From Dysgonomonadaceae bacterium PH5-43 (GTDB lineage: Bacteria > Bacteroidota > Bacteroidia > Bacteroidales > Azobacteroidaceae), in contig JARXWK010000012.1 of the NCBI GenBank assembly GCA_029916745.1, positions 1 through 64,000 of the forward strand: 64,000 bases of DNA. Direction: 5' to 3'. Within the stretch, counting starts at the first letter, position 1; every line of letters begins with the position of its first letter. Positions 21,364 through 52,361 of the stretch are shown piece after piece. A model generated the notes under the pieces. That model was not told where the DNA came from, ran no database searches, and saw nothing but the letters and a program-made list of their open reading frames with translations. Position numbers and translations under genes: made by a program.

Positions 21364-21447
21364 TGCTCGCTTTACGTAACCTCTGAAGAGAAAAGAGAGA
21401 CTCTTGAATGTTGCGTTTTGTTATTAAACTAAAAAGCTAAATAAATT

Positions 21448-27212: not shown

Positions 27213-27416
27213 AATCCGCTAAAGTAATAACAATAATGTTAACCTCAAATTTATTTTGAGAAAATAAACTATTATAGTCTGGTAAAAACTAAAAAAAACA
27301 GTTTAAGACATAGTTGTAAGTGAGTTCTAAAATGTTTTCTCAAAGTAAGCCACGTAATCAAATAAGAACAGTTATTTGCTGGTAGATTATCTCTTTTTTG
27401 CGAGTATTTTCATCTT

Positions 27417-27661
27417 AAAAATGCAAAGCTTCACTTAGGGTCGTCTCTCTACTAAGAGACCCCTTCTCTCTCTTATTAGATAGGCGAGGTGTCTCTACTA
27501 AGAGCGGCGGGGTGCTTTAAGTATTAAGGCGAGGTCGTTCTACTAAGAGCGGCATCGGGTCTCTACCAAGAACGGCAAGGGGTATCTACTAAGAAGCAAC
27601 TCGCCTATCTAATAACAACGACAAGGGGTATGTAATAAGAAAGGCAAGGGAGTTCTACTAA
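27417..27661 (-). repeat. 23-bp periodic array, copy A
   Basis: Ten cores of the form TACTAA (with variants TTATTA, TATTAA, TACCAA, TAATAA) start at 27450, 27473, 27496, 27522, 27541, 27564, 27587, 27610, 27633 and 27656, i.e. a 23-base step with one disturbed unit. Between cores lie 17-bp segments that mostly begin GA and end TC but differ inside. At the low-coordinate end is a 44-bp block (27417-27460) that is the exact reverse complement of 51479-51522. There is no open frame through the array and no cas gene. It fills the gap between the metY 3' end and the propeller gene start. Confidence 0.9.
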
Positions 27662-27677
27662 CATCCTTGCCTTCTTT
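27643..27677. terminator. Hairpin after metY
   Basis: GGCAAGG (27643-27649) pairs with CCTTGCC (27665-27671), flanked by T-rich DNA on one side and A/T on the other. It overlaps the last array unit and could end the metY transcript. Confidence 0.45.
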
Positions 27678-27708
27678 TAATGAGAGTGTTTTGTTGGTAA
27701 GCCGCTTC

Positions 27709-28977
27709 TTACTTCAAAGCTTGTTTTATATCTTCAATCAGATCGTCTACATTTTCTATACCTACCGACAAGCGGATTAAGTCGGGAGCTACACCTGCTG
27801 CAATAAGTTGTTCGTCGCTTAGTTGGCGGTGAGTATGACTTGCAGGGTGAAGCACACAAGTGCGAGCATCGGCAACGTGAGTTACAATAGCAATAAGTTT
27901 TAAGCTGTCAATAAAGTCGATAGATGCCTCTCTGCCTCCTTTAAGTCCGAAAGCAATAACGCCACAAGAACCGTTAGGAAGGTATTTTTGTCCTAAGTCA
28001 TAGTATTTGTCATTCTTCAAGCCGCAATAGTTAACCCACGCTATTTTCTCGTTGCTTTCTAAAAACTCAGCTATTTTCTGAGCATTGTAGCAATGACGCT
28101 CCATACGAAGGTGAAGAGTTTCTAAACCGATGTTAGTAAGAAATGCATTCATAGGAGCTTGAATAGAACCTAAGTCTCTCATTAACTGAACAACAGACTT
28201 GTAGATATATGCCGCTTTGCCAAAAGCTTCTGTATATATCAATCCGTGATAAGAATCGTCGGGAGTTGTAAGTCCAGGAAACTTATCGGCGTTTGCATTC
28301 CAGTCGAAGTTACCACTGTCAACAACAACGCCGCCTACGCTTGTAGCGTGTCCGTCCATATATTTAGTTGTAGAGTGAATAACAATATCGGCTCCCCACT
28401 TTATCGGATTACAGTTAATAGGTGTAGCAAAAGTGTTGTCGACAATAAGAGGCACACCTTGCGAGTGAGCTATGCGAGCAAACTTTTCTATATCTAAAAC
28501 TTTAAGACCCGGATTGGCAACTGTTTCTCCGAACAAAGCTTTTGTGTTAGGACGAAAAGCTTTAGCTATTTCTTCTTCGCTTGCGTCTTGATCAACAAAA
28601 GTAACTTCAATGCCTAAGCGAGCCATTGTTACAGCAAATAAGTTGAATGTGCCTCCGTATATAGTAGATGCACTAACAAAGTGATCGCCCGAAGAACATA
28701 TATTAAACAGAGCGTAGAAAGATGCCGCTTGTCCTGAAGAGGTAAGCATTGCACCAACACCGCCCTCTAAGTTGCAAATCTTAGCAGCTACAGCATCGTT
28801 GGTTGGGTTTTGTAGGCGAGTGTAGAAATATCCCGACTCTTCTAAGTCGAACAATTTAGCCATTTGTTCGCTTGTTTCGTATTTAAATGTAGTACTTTGG
28901 TAAATAGGCAAAACTCTTGGCTCGCCTTTCTTTGGCGACCAACCCCCTTGTACGCATATTGTCTCTTTTTTATACAT
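27709..28977 (-). CDS. metY: O-acetylhomoserine sulfhydrylase
   Basis: PLP-dependent enzyme of the Cys/Met metabolism family, 422 residues, converting O-acetyl-homoserine and sulfide to homocysteine. The PLP lysine is K205 in HSTTKYMDGH; the opening TICVQGGWSPKKGEPRVLPI and the length of about 420 favour the MetY type over the shorter MetB/MetC enzymes. It lies 34 bases after argF' on the same strand, so the two may share a transcript. A cystathionine gamma-synthase activity cannot be excluded. Confidence 0.9.
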   Translation of the reverse strand: MYKKETICVQGGWSPKKGEPRVLPIYQSTTFKYETSEQMAKLFDLEESGYFYTRLQNPTNDAVAAKICNLEGGVGAMLTSSGQAASFYALFNICSSGDHFVSASTIYGGTFNLFAVTMARLGIEVTFVDQDASEEEIAKAFRPNTKALFGETVANPGLKVLDIEKFARIAHSQGVPLIVDNTFATPINCNPIKWGADIVIHSTTKYMDGHATSVGGVVVDSGNFDWNANADKFPGLTTPDDSYHGLIYTEAFGKAAYIYKSVVQLMRDLGSIQAPMNAFLTNIGLETLHLRMERHCYNAQKIAEFLESNEKIAWVNYCGLKNDKYYDLGQKYLPNGSCGVIAFGLKGGREASIDFIDSLKLIAIVTHVADARTCVLHPASHTHRQLSDEQLIAAGVAPDLIRLSVGIENVDDLIEDIKQALK

Positions 28978-44013: not shown

Positions 44014-44128
44014 AAAATTTTCGCACGTCTGAAAATAAATTTTCGCACGTCTGGAAATAAATTTACGTACGTATGAAAATAAATTTACGTCCGCATGAAA
44101 ATATATTTACATACGCATGAAAATAAAA
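44014..44128 (+). repeat. 22-bp degenerate tandem repeat
   Basis: Units start at 44032, 44054, 44076 and 44098 with a partial unit before (44014) and after (44120). The consensus is AAAATAAATTT, then an ACG-rich segment of about 8 bases such as ACGTACGT or CGCACGTC, then TG. Inner parts are near-palindromic (ACGTACGT). It directly follows the pepP stop and precedes a terminator. Confidence 0.85.
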
Positions 44129-49610: not shown

Positions 49611-51134
49611 ATGAAAAATTTCAATTTACTATTGATTGCTGTATTGTTGGGTTTCGCAACAACATTGGTAGCTCAAAACAAAGAACGCCCTTGGGCTGTG
49701 AGTCTTTATGGTGTAAAGACTGAGTATTTGGGAGATATGAGAACCTATTCACACATAGGATCAACCTCAAATTGGTTTAACTACACAAAAAACACTATTT
49801 TTAATTTCGATCAATTTTATGGAGGCGGAGGTCTTTCTGTAGACAGATACCTAAGTCGCTTTTTTGATTTAGGGATTTATGGTTCGTACGGAACTATTGG
49901 ATACGACTTATACGACGATGGTTCTTTTACTCACAGAAACTTTGATGCAAATGTAGCCAGTGCAAAACTTCAAACAAGAATTAAGTTTTTAGGAATGGAC
50001 GATTGCGCTGTAGTTCCTTACATCTCAATAGGTGTTGGTGGTTTAGCTTACTTCGATGTGTCGAGTAAGGTTAACGCAAACGGCAACTACTTCACAGGTT
50101 ACCAAGGAGAGAACCTACCTTTCTCTAAACAAGAATATAGTGGCGATAACCCTGGTTTCGCAGGTATCGTAACAGGAGGTTTAGGTCTTGAAGTTAGATT
50201 ATCTAAAGTTGTAAGCTTAAGATATCAAGCTGACTTTGGTTGGACAACTTCAGACAAATACGATATGTTTAAGAACGGCAACGGTAAAGATATGCAACTA
50301 CAACATAACGTAGGTATATCGTTTGCTTTCGGAAAAGGAAAACGTGATAGAGATAAAGACGGTGTTTATGATGATGTAGACAGATGTCTTGGAACTCCTT
50401 TCGGCGTAACAGTTGACGAGTTTGGTTGTCCTGTAGATTCTGACGGTGATGGCGTAGCTGATTATCTTGATAAATGTCCTGATACTCCTCGTGGAGCAAA
50501 AGTTGATGCTAACGGTTGTCCTGTAGATTCTGACGGCGACGGTGTTGCAGACTACCTTGACAAATGTCCTAACACTCCTGCTGGTGTGAAAGTTGACGCT
50601 AACGGTTGTCCAGTTGACTCTGACGGTGACGGTGTTGCAGACTATCTTGACAAATGTCCTAACACTCCTGCTGGTGTGAAAGTTGACGCTAACGGTTGTC
50701 CAGTTGACTCTGACGGTGACGGTGTTGCAGACTATCTTGACAAATGTCCTAACACTCCTGCTGGTGTGAAAGTTGATGCTAACGGTTGTCCGCTTATTCC
50801 TGAATTAGACGAGAAAGTTCTTTTCGATACAGGTAAATCAGTTATCAAATCAGAAGCTAACCCAACACTTGACAAAGTTGTTGAATTGCTAAACGCTAAT
50901 TCTGAACTTAAGATTAAGATTAATGGTCATACCGACAATACAGGTAGCGAAAGATTGAATAGTAAACTTTCTATAAACAGAGCTAAAGCTGTTGAAAAAT
51001 ACTTAGTAGATAAAGGCATTAGCCAAGATAGAATTTCTACTGAAGGTTTTGGATATAGCAAACCAATCTCTGATAATTCAACAACAGAAGGACGTTCTCA
51101 AAACAGACGTGTGGAAATTGTTTGGAACAATTAA
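49611..51134 (+). CDS. OmpA family outer membrane protein
   Basis: Outer-membrane protein of 507 residues. Signal peptide (MKNFNLLLIAVLL...), an N-terminal beta-barrel (about 25-240), then five thrombospondin type-3-like calcium-binding repeats of 30 residues (DSDGDGVADYLDKCPNTPAG type, about 246-395), and the C-terminal OmpA peptidoglycan-binding domain (NGHTDNTGSERLN; RISTEGFGYSKPISDN). It anchors the outer membrane to the wall. The repeats are very similar at DNA level. Single-gene unit with promoter and terminator. Confidence 0.94.
   Translation: MKNFNLLLIAVLLGFATTLVAQNKERPWAVSLYGVKTEYLGDMRTYSHIGSTSNWFNYTKNTIFNFDQFYGGGGLSVDRYLSRFFDLGIYGSYGTIGYDLYDDGSFTHRNFDANVASAKLQTRIKFLGMDDCAVVPYISIGVGGLAYFDVSSKVNANGNYFTGYQGENLPFSKQEYSGDNPGFAGIVTGGLGLEVRLSKVVSLRYQADFGWTTSDKYDMFKNGNGKDMQLQHNVGISFAFGKGKRDRDKDGVYDDVDRCLGTPFGVTVDEFGCPVDSDGDGVADYLDKCPDTPRGAKVDANGCPVDSDGDGVADYLDKCPNTPAGVKVDANGCPVDSDGDGVADYLDKCPNTPAGVKVDANGCPVDSDGDGVADYLDKCPNTPAGVKVDANGCPLIPELDEKVLFDTGKSVIKSEANPTLDKVVELLNANSELKIKINGHTDNTGSERLNSKLSINRAKAVEKYLVDKGISQDRISTEGFGYSKPISDNSTTEGRSQNRRVEIVWNN
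50346..50795 (+). repeat. 90-bp in-frame tandem repeat
   Basis: Five copies of a 90-bp unit encode the calcium-binding repeats. Copies three to five are almost identical in bases, the first is most diverged. Replication slippage could change the copy number without shifting the frame. Confidence 0.9.
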
Positions 51135-51156: not shown

Positions 51157-51193
51157 AAAAAAGCTCTGTCAATTATTTGGCAGAGCTTTTTTT
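51157..51193 (+). terminator. Terminator of the OmpA gene
   Basis: AAAAAGCTCTG pairs with CAGAGCTTTTT across an inner CAA/TTG pair, followed by T. Confidence 0.9.
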
Positions 51194-51252
51194 GTGTTCG
51201 TTTTATTATTGAGCAGTAAAACAATCTTAGTAAAAGGACTACTAAGGGGAGG

Positions 51253-51522
51253 TTAGTAGGTAACCCCATTTCTTTCTTATAAGAGACCCCATTTCTTTCT
51301 TAGTAGATAGGCGAGGTGCTTCTTAGTAGAGACCCCTCCTCTCTCTTAGTAGATAGGGGAGCTGCTTCTTAGTAGAGACCCGATGCCTCTCTTTATAGAA
51401 CCGCCTAATCTCTCTTAGTAGAACCACCCCGTCGTTCTTAGTAGAGAGACATCGCCTCTCTTAGTAGAGACACGAGGTGTCTCTTAGTAGAGAGACGACC
51501 CTAAGTGAAGCTTTGCATTTTT
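51253..51522 (+). repeat. 23-bp periodic array, copy B
   Basis: Eleven TTAGTA-type cores start at 51253, 51277, 51300, 51323, 51346, 51369, 51392, 51415, 51438, 51461 and 51484: a step of 23 bases after one of 24. The 17-bp segments between begin GA (with few exceptions) and end TC, with a variable 13-base middle, some self-palindromic (GAGACAC GAG GTGTCTC). The array ends with a 44-bp block (51479-51522) whose reverse complement occurs at 27417-27460 and which contains the last six codons and stop of prmA. It lies between the convergent OmpA gene and prmA. Confidence 0.92.
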
Positions 51523-52361
51523 TGAACTGAGAAATGCACAGCGCACCAGTTGTTTTTCTCTTTAAAAGAGACAAATTTTAGACCGTATTCTTGGCATTTT
51601 TTCATTATAATGTCTATGTCTTCTTGGTAAAAGCCACTCATATATAACGAAGAACCCTGCTTCATACATTTAGCATAAGTAGGTATGTCTTCTAATAAAA
51701 TATTGCGATTAATGTTTGCGAAGATAAAATCATATTTGTCATCTCCAAGTAGCGAGGCGTCACCTAAAGCTACCGCTATGTCGGGGGTATTGTTTAATCG
51801 TATATTTTCTAATGAATTTTCGTAAGCCCACTGATCTATATCTATAGCCATAACGGGATTTGCTCCTTTCATACTGGCAAGGATTGCCAGAACGGCAGTG
51901 CCACACCCCATATCTAATAACGATTTGTTTGTTAAATCTAAATCAAGCATATATGATACCATAAGACTTGTGGTGGAATGGTGTCCTGTGCCAAAAGCCA
52001 TCTTTGGGTCGATGGTAATATCGTAATCTAAAGAAGGAATATCTTTGTGAAACGAACTGTGTATAACAACTCTATCGTCTATTATTATAGGTTGAAAGAA
52101 ATTCTTTTCCCATTCTTCATTCCAGTCTTTACTTTTAATAAATTCAATATGATATTTGACATTGGTGTCTATTAAAGGTAGATTTTCTAATGTTTCGGCA
52201 AGATTTTCTTCCGAATAAAGATTTTCGGGCACATAAGCATCTAAGCCTTTATCCGATTCAACAAAGCTTTCGAAACCTATATCCGACAATAATGCCGAAA
52301 TTATATCCCTATTTGTCTCCGTGTTAGGAGTAAGTGTTAATTTTAATTCGTAATAATCCAT
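51501..52361 (-). CDS. prmA: Ribosomal protein L11 methyltransferase
   Basis: SAM-dependent methyltransferase of 286 residues, methylating L11 lysines. N-terminal substrate-binding domain, then the Rossmann domain with DPKMAFGTGHHSTT and the SAM loop LDMGCGTAVLAILASMKGA. The last six codons and the stop lie within the conserved end block of the repeat array, so the C-terminus (after about FSVQ) seems to be supplied by that element. Otherwise the gene is intact. Confidence 0.93.
   Translation of the reverse strand: MDYYELKLTLTPNTETNRDIISALLSDIGFESFVESDKGLDAYVPENLYSEENLAETLENLPLIDTNVKYHIEFIKSKDWNEEWEKNFFQPIIIDDRVVIHSSFHKDIPSLDYDITIDPKMAFGTGHHSTTSLMVSYMLDLDLTNKSLLDMGCGTAVLAILASMKGANPVMAIDIDQWAYENSLENIRLNNTPDIAVALGDASLLGDDKYDFIFANINRNILLEDIPTYAKCMKQGSSLYMSGFYQEDIDIIMKKCQEYGLKFVSFKEKNNWCAVHFSVQKMQSFT

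Follow-up and report, generated by a model that had tools for sequence, protein, structure and literature searches.

A 44-bp block at the 3′ end of prmA in Dysgonomonadaceae bacterium PH5-43 is very probably the right end of a dispersed, BOX-organised intergenic repeat

The window, by which we mean the whole 64,000-nucleotide stretch of PH5-43 DNA analysed here, carries an OmpA-family gene (49611-51134, plus strand) and, to its right, prmA (51501-52361, minus strand), which encodes a 286 aa ribosomal protein L11 methyltransferase (Pfam PF06325, E 1.6e-48). A terminator scan placed an intrinsic-terminator-like hairpin 3′ of the OmpA-family gene (51157-51192, plus strand), and just to the right of it, between the two genes, lies the first copy of a repeat element (51208-51522, plus strand, left edge approximate), recognised by a left-end motif, TAAAACAATCTTAGTAAAAGGA, common to copies of what we call subfamily A and by its matching array and block. 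It consists of a degenerate left-end module, ATTGAGCAGTAAAACAATCTTAGTAAAAGGA (51208-51238, plus strand), aligned manually with left ends of the ATTGCTGTCCGATAAAAC type in other copies, some ten hairpin units of 23 bp with the core TCTTAGTAGA (51274-51499, plus strand), delimited by a tandem repeat finder and by composition, and a 44-bp block (51479-51522, plus strand) made of the last hairpin unit and a right terminal module, CCCTAAGTGAAGCTTTGCATTTTT, found 60 times genome-wide. The second copy, also of subfamily A by its block, array and left-end matches, lies on the minus strand at 27417-27698 (left edge approximate), with its array and left hairpin, AAGGCAAGGATGTTAGTAGAACTCCCTTGCCTT, at 27461-27690 (minus strand; tandem repeat, folding and left-end comparison) and, past the block, an R1-type tail beginning TAAGATGAAAATACTCGC at 27335-27416 (minus strand, right end approximate), which follows the block in many other A copies and which the first copy lacks. 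A Cys/Met-metabolism gene (27709-28977, minus strand) has its stop codon ~10 bp from the left end of this second copy, whose block precedes a gene start by 205 bp. GC content is 46-47% in the arrays (46% in the first copy) compared with 35% for the window.

The block at 51479-51522 is the exact reverse complement of 27417-27460 (44 of 44 bases, where simple arithmetic gives about 1e-17 random matches of a 44-mer in 64 kb), and identity drops abruptly beyond both edges. As the preliminary description had noted, it contains the stop codon of prmA and the six codons before it (KMQSFT*), read on the minus strand at 51501-51521 as AAA ATG CAA AGC TTC ACT TAG, and the 27.4-kb site, with its different tail past the block, holds no further prmA sequence. 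The same description predicted that PrmA of array-free relatives would end differently, and this is what we found: the closest such relative, with 79% identity in PrmA, has a protein ending in ...AVYFSKQ*, which lines up with AVHFSVQ here, and in other relatives too the protein stops at about residues 277-284 of the PH5-43 numbering, without KMQSFT. As the relatives' PrmA stops at the FSVQ position, KMQSFT* derives from the repeat. Among named relatives, the closest by PrmA are MAGs of Dysgonamonadaceae and Candidatus Symbiothrix, termite-gut-type Bacteroidales. Of the two origins offered in the preliminary description, insertion into the prmA 3′ end or copying from it, the foreignness of the block to prmA stands and the copying is rejected, because no array-free relative examined showed the same prmA 3′ end. 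The block was also described as a leader or boundary of the array; the sequence comparisons support a boundary that is not native prmA sequence, and a CRISPR-style leader is not supported.

A genome-wide search extended the block well beyond the two sites in the window. A 22-mer from its right part, CCTAAGTGAAGCTTTGCATTTT, occurs 60 times with up to 2 mismatches in the 2.54-Mb genome, and a 39-mer joining the block to its adjoining hairpin gave 41 matches with up to 3 mismatches, against 0 for a reversed-pattern control. A covariance model trained on 57 copies returned at least ~85 full array ends as strong matches in this genome; since the scoring covered 150 of 1143 candidate places, this number is a lower bound. 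The 22-mer core was absent from all 37 other genomes of the genus, a search of 44 further genomes of the family with array DNA gave no match, and the exact block was found neither in genome_contigs (85,000 species) nor in viral_contigs, collections which may omit the source genome itself. The repeat is many-copy, intergenic and species-restricted in the manner of BOX-like repeats; a literature search returned no report of it, and it appears to represent a BOX-like family outside the streptococci that has so far gone undescribed.

Compared over the stretches of genome around them, the copies follow one order of modules: a left end, hairpin units of 23 bp in varying number (from a few to about a dozen in tandem), the right block CCCTAAGTGAAGCTTT, then one of several tails. 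The units, each a 23-bp variant from a limited set, adjoin one another and recur in the same order across copies. Subfamily A has the short left end TAAAACAATCTTAGTAAAAGGA and mostly an R1 tail, while in subfamily B a left region of ~300 bp is conserved and the tail is R2, R3 or R4; left type and tail go together (23 R1 and 8 R2-R4 among A copies, 2 R1 and 32 R2-R4 among B copies), as expected if the subfamilies were copied as units. R1 is found almost exclusively with the block, and R2 is a separate dispersed repeat present away from the arrays too. The distance from the left anchor to the block rises in steps of ~23 bp, with values of 229, 251, 276, 296 and 318 bp in A and 328, 373, 396, 420 and 443 bp in B, so that fixed end modules enclose a variable number of internal units, as in BOX elements; the minimal copy, at C3:125.3 kb, is ~120 bp long.

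Several other repeats came to light in the window and around the arrays. At L239 a short second array element of about three units, in inverse orientation, lies to the right of the block of a B-type copy. A second dispersed repeat, AACTAAGAACTAAGAGTGAAGAACTAAG (seen at L120-L149), has 46 genome matches, often beside T-runs, forms an inverted pair at some places and has about half of its copies away from the arrays; the tandem repeat AGTGAAGAACTAAG at 1618-1648 of the window looks like a fragment of it. Five 22-bp tandem copies of AAATTTACGTACGTATGAAAAT occupy 44015-44127 of the window, and similar sequence adjoins arrays at L088 and L093, so this is probably a further dispersed repeat. The OmpA-family gene contains four 90-bp tandem repeats (50424-50791) encoding thrombospondin type 3 repeats, and an L19-Flavobacteria ribosomal protein leader at 21377-21413 scored just above the Rfam threshold.

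The copy number, the intergenic location, the two subfamilies, the stepwise array length and the absence from relatives are direct observations, and with them the 44-bp block very probably forms the conserved right terminus of a non-coding, dispersed, MITE-like repeat of BOX organisation with at least ~85 intergenic copies. That it is instead native prmA 3′ sequence, of which copies were later made at 27.4 kb and other sites, is almost certainly wrong: the block is in frame with prmA and terminates it, yet this reading is already refuted by the relatives' PrmA, which stops before the block, and some 60-85 other copies carry no prmA sequence, with a wholly different flank past the block. We also hold it to be highly improbable that an integrating element or CRISPR-type array attaches at gene 3′ ends, with the block as its leader or att site. 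The block does touch the prmA stop, at L014 the recX stop codon coincides with the block's last bases, and A copies lie downstream of the left-hand gene in 25 of 34 cases (a post hoc count), but the remaining copies sit free between genes, B shows no such orientation preference and has 13 of its 35 copies between divergent genes, and the element itself contains no genes and arranges near-identical hairpins with no unique spacers in between. Of the 87 copies examined, not one is located within a gene, and only the prmA copy shares coding bases with one; the 75 copies with both neighbours known divide into 23 convergent, 19 divergent and 33 tandem settings, over which targeting of gene 3′ ends as a rule was not borne out. 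Contact with a coding end being so rare (prmA, recX), the analogy that the preliminary description drew with integrating elements using gene 3′ ends is unsupported, and prmA simply happens to adjoin one of at least ~85 copies of the repeat.

Two further readings concern what the hairpins are for or what moves them. Palindromic intergenic units in both orientations and in mosaic order are also seen in BIMEs (PMC2817692, PMC3733652), and the copies might accordingly be REP/BIME-type elements mobilised by a RAYT (Y1) transposase, but we consider this very unlikely, as the PH5-43 genome has no Y1_Tnp (PF01797) match although 5 of 14 control genomes do, and the 23-bp units run head to tail between fixed, unlike end modules; a Y1/RAYT-driven REP was on this ground rejected. 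Likewise, retro-mobilisation was rejected, as the genome has no reverse transcriptase (PF00078) match. A structured RNA or transcription-terminating element under selection at gene ends is quite unlikely too. The 27.4-kb copy has clear predicted folding above shuffled sequences (z -4.6), A copies lean to gene 3′ ends and arrays often come after terminators; against this, the predicted folding of the 51.5-kb copy is only somewhat above shuffles (RNA z -2.7, DNA z -1.9) and the element is absent from all relatives searched. Across copies, 0 of 19 pairs in the consensus fold show compensatory changes, so a conserved RNA fold is not demonstrated, and with no Rfam family matching the element, conserved RNA structure was discarded as a candidate; the sub-threshold Rfam matches centre on the terminator of the OmpA gene and not on the array.

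Under the dispersed-repeat reading, one copy would have come to abut the prmA 3′ end, having inserted at the stop codon itself or else close by, with a small deletion afterwards, and prmA would then have read into the element, gaining KMQSFT before an internal stop. The two edges of the element carry TTCAA and CTCAA, and a hypothetical join at the shared TCAA restores a 280-aa PrmA ending FSVQ*; as a target duplication at prmA this pair is only suggestive, the left motif overlapping the degenerate left end of the element itself. The R1 tail present in 23 A copies is missing from the prmA copy, so the junction may stem from a deletion and not from a clean insertion.

For the spread of the repeat, the resident DDE_Tnp_1 genes offer a lead. 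One 1.4-kb DDE_Tnp_1 element (L260:1011-2426, on contig C26 of genome G000) is bounded by inverted repeats, TATTACTGTCCGATAAAA, with GTTGAGAAT its likely target duplication, and small MITEs elsewhere in the genome are bounded by the same terminal repeat, one of them only 56 bp long (C23:46639-46694). The left ends of array copies at C2:82305, C2:131507, C26:2169 and C8:47746 match this terminal repeat, ATTRCTGTCCGATAAAA, with up to 2 mismatches. No right-end partner of the repeat was found in most array copies, so transposition by the C26 enzyme is a lead and not proof. We would tentatively propose, with rather less than even confidence, that the family spread by DDE transposition in trans and that array length and unit orientation changed later by replication slippage and hairpin-templated exchange.

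The hairpins themselves vary in orientation. In 57 copies the last hairpin has the sequence CTCTTAGTAGAG and in 30 the exact reverse complement of it, CTCTACTAAGAG (near matches counted), and both orientations occur in like surroundings and in both subfamilies; in the two window copies its loop is at 51482-51493 and 27446-27457. Inversion within the palindrome, or exchange between units, would produce the two orientations. That the hairpin units are sites of active inversion or exchange is unlikely, but if it were true, intergenic arrays across the whole genome would be undergoing rewriting by a recombinase or by hairpin flipping coupled to replication, and the 3′ ends of transcripts might be affected. 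The flipped loops and stepwise lengths in any case provide at least ~85 natural replicates for studying change in palindromic arrays, and the prmA copy is an example of an interspersed repeat lengthening a conserved housekeeping protein through the codons and stop that it supplies, here in an uncultured Bacteroidales lineage.

In design, the closest known kind is the Streptococcus pneumoniae BOX element, boxA-boxB(n)-boxC, to which we liken the repeat by architecture without claiming membership. BOX elements have fixed ends, variable internal units and about a hundred intergenic copies nearly confined to one species, and have been interpreted as parasitic elements able to alter nearby genes (PMC3049150). 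The present repeat is likewise modular and intergenic, with fixed end modules, a variable count of stem-loop-forming internal units and roughly a hundred copies restricted almost entirely to a single species, and it too adjoins and inserts into other repeat families and can alter genes at its site. It differs from BOX in its 23-bp internal unit (46-bp super-repeat) in place of boxB, in a hairpin loop found in both orientations and in a host of a different phylum. With BIME/REP elements, which are tied to Y1 transposases (PMC2817692, PMC3733652), it shares palindromic intergenic units, mosaic arrays and both unit orientations, but not the transposase, and its head-to-tail 23-bp series ends in unlike modules. 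Adjoining near-identical 23-bp variants, with no unique spacers of constant length, set it apart from CRISPR arrays. As in the MITEs of DDE insertion sequences, the copies are short, non-coding and numerous, and some left ends equal the resident DDE_Tnp_1 terminal repeat, although no matching right terminal repeat is seen in most copies; in its overall plan, fixed ends around a variable run of internal units, the family most closely resembles BOX.
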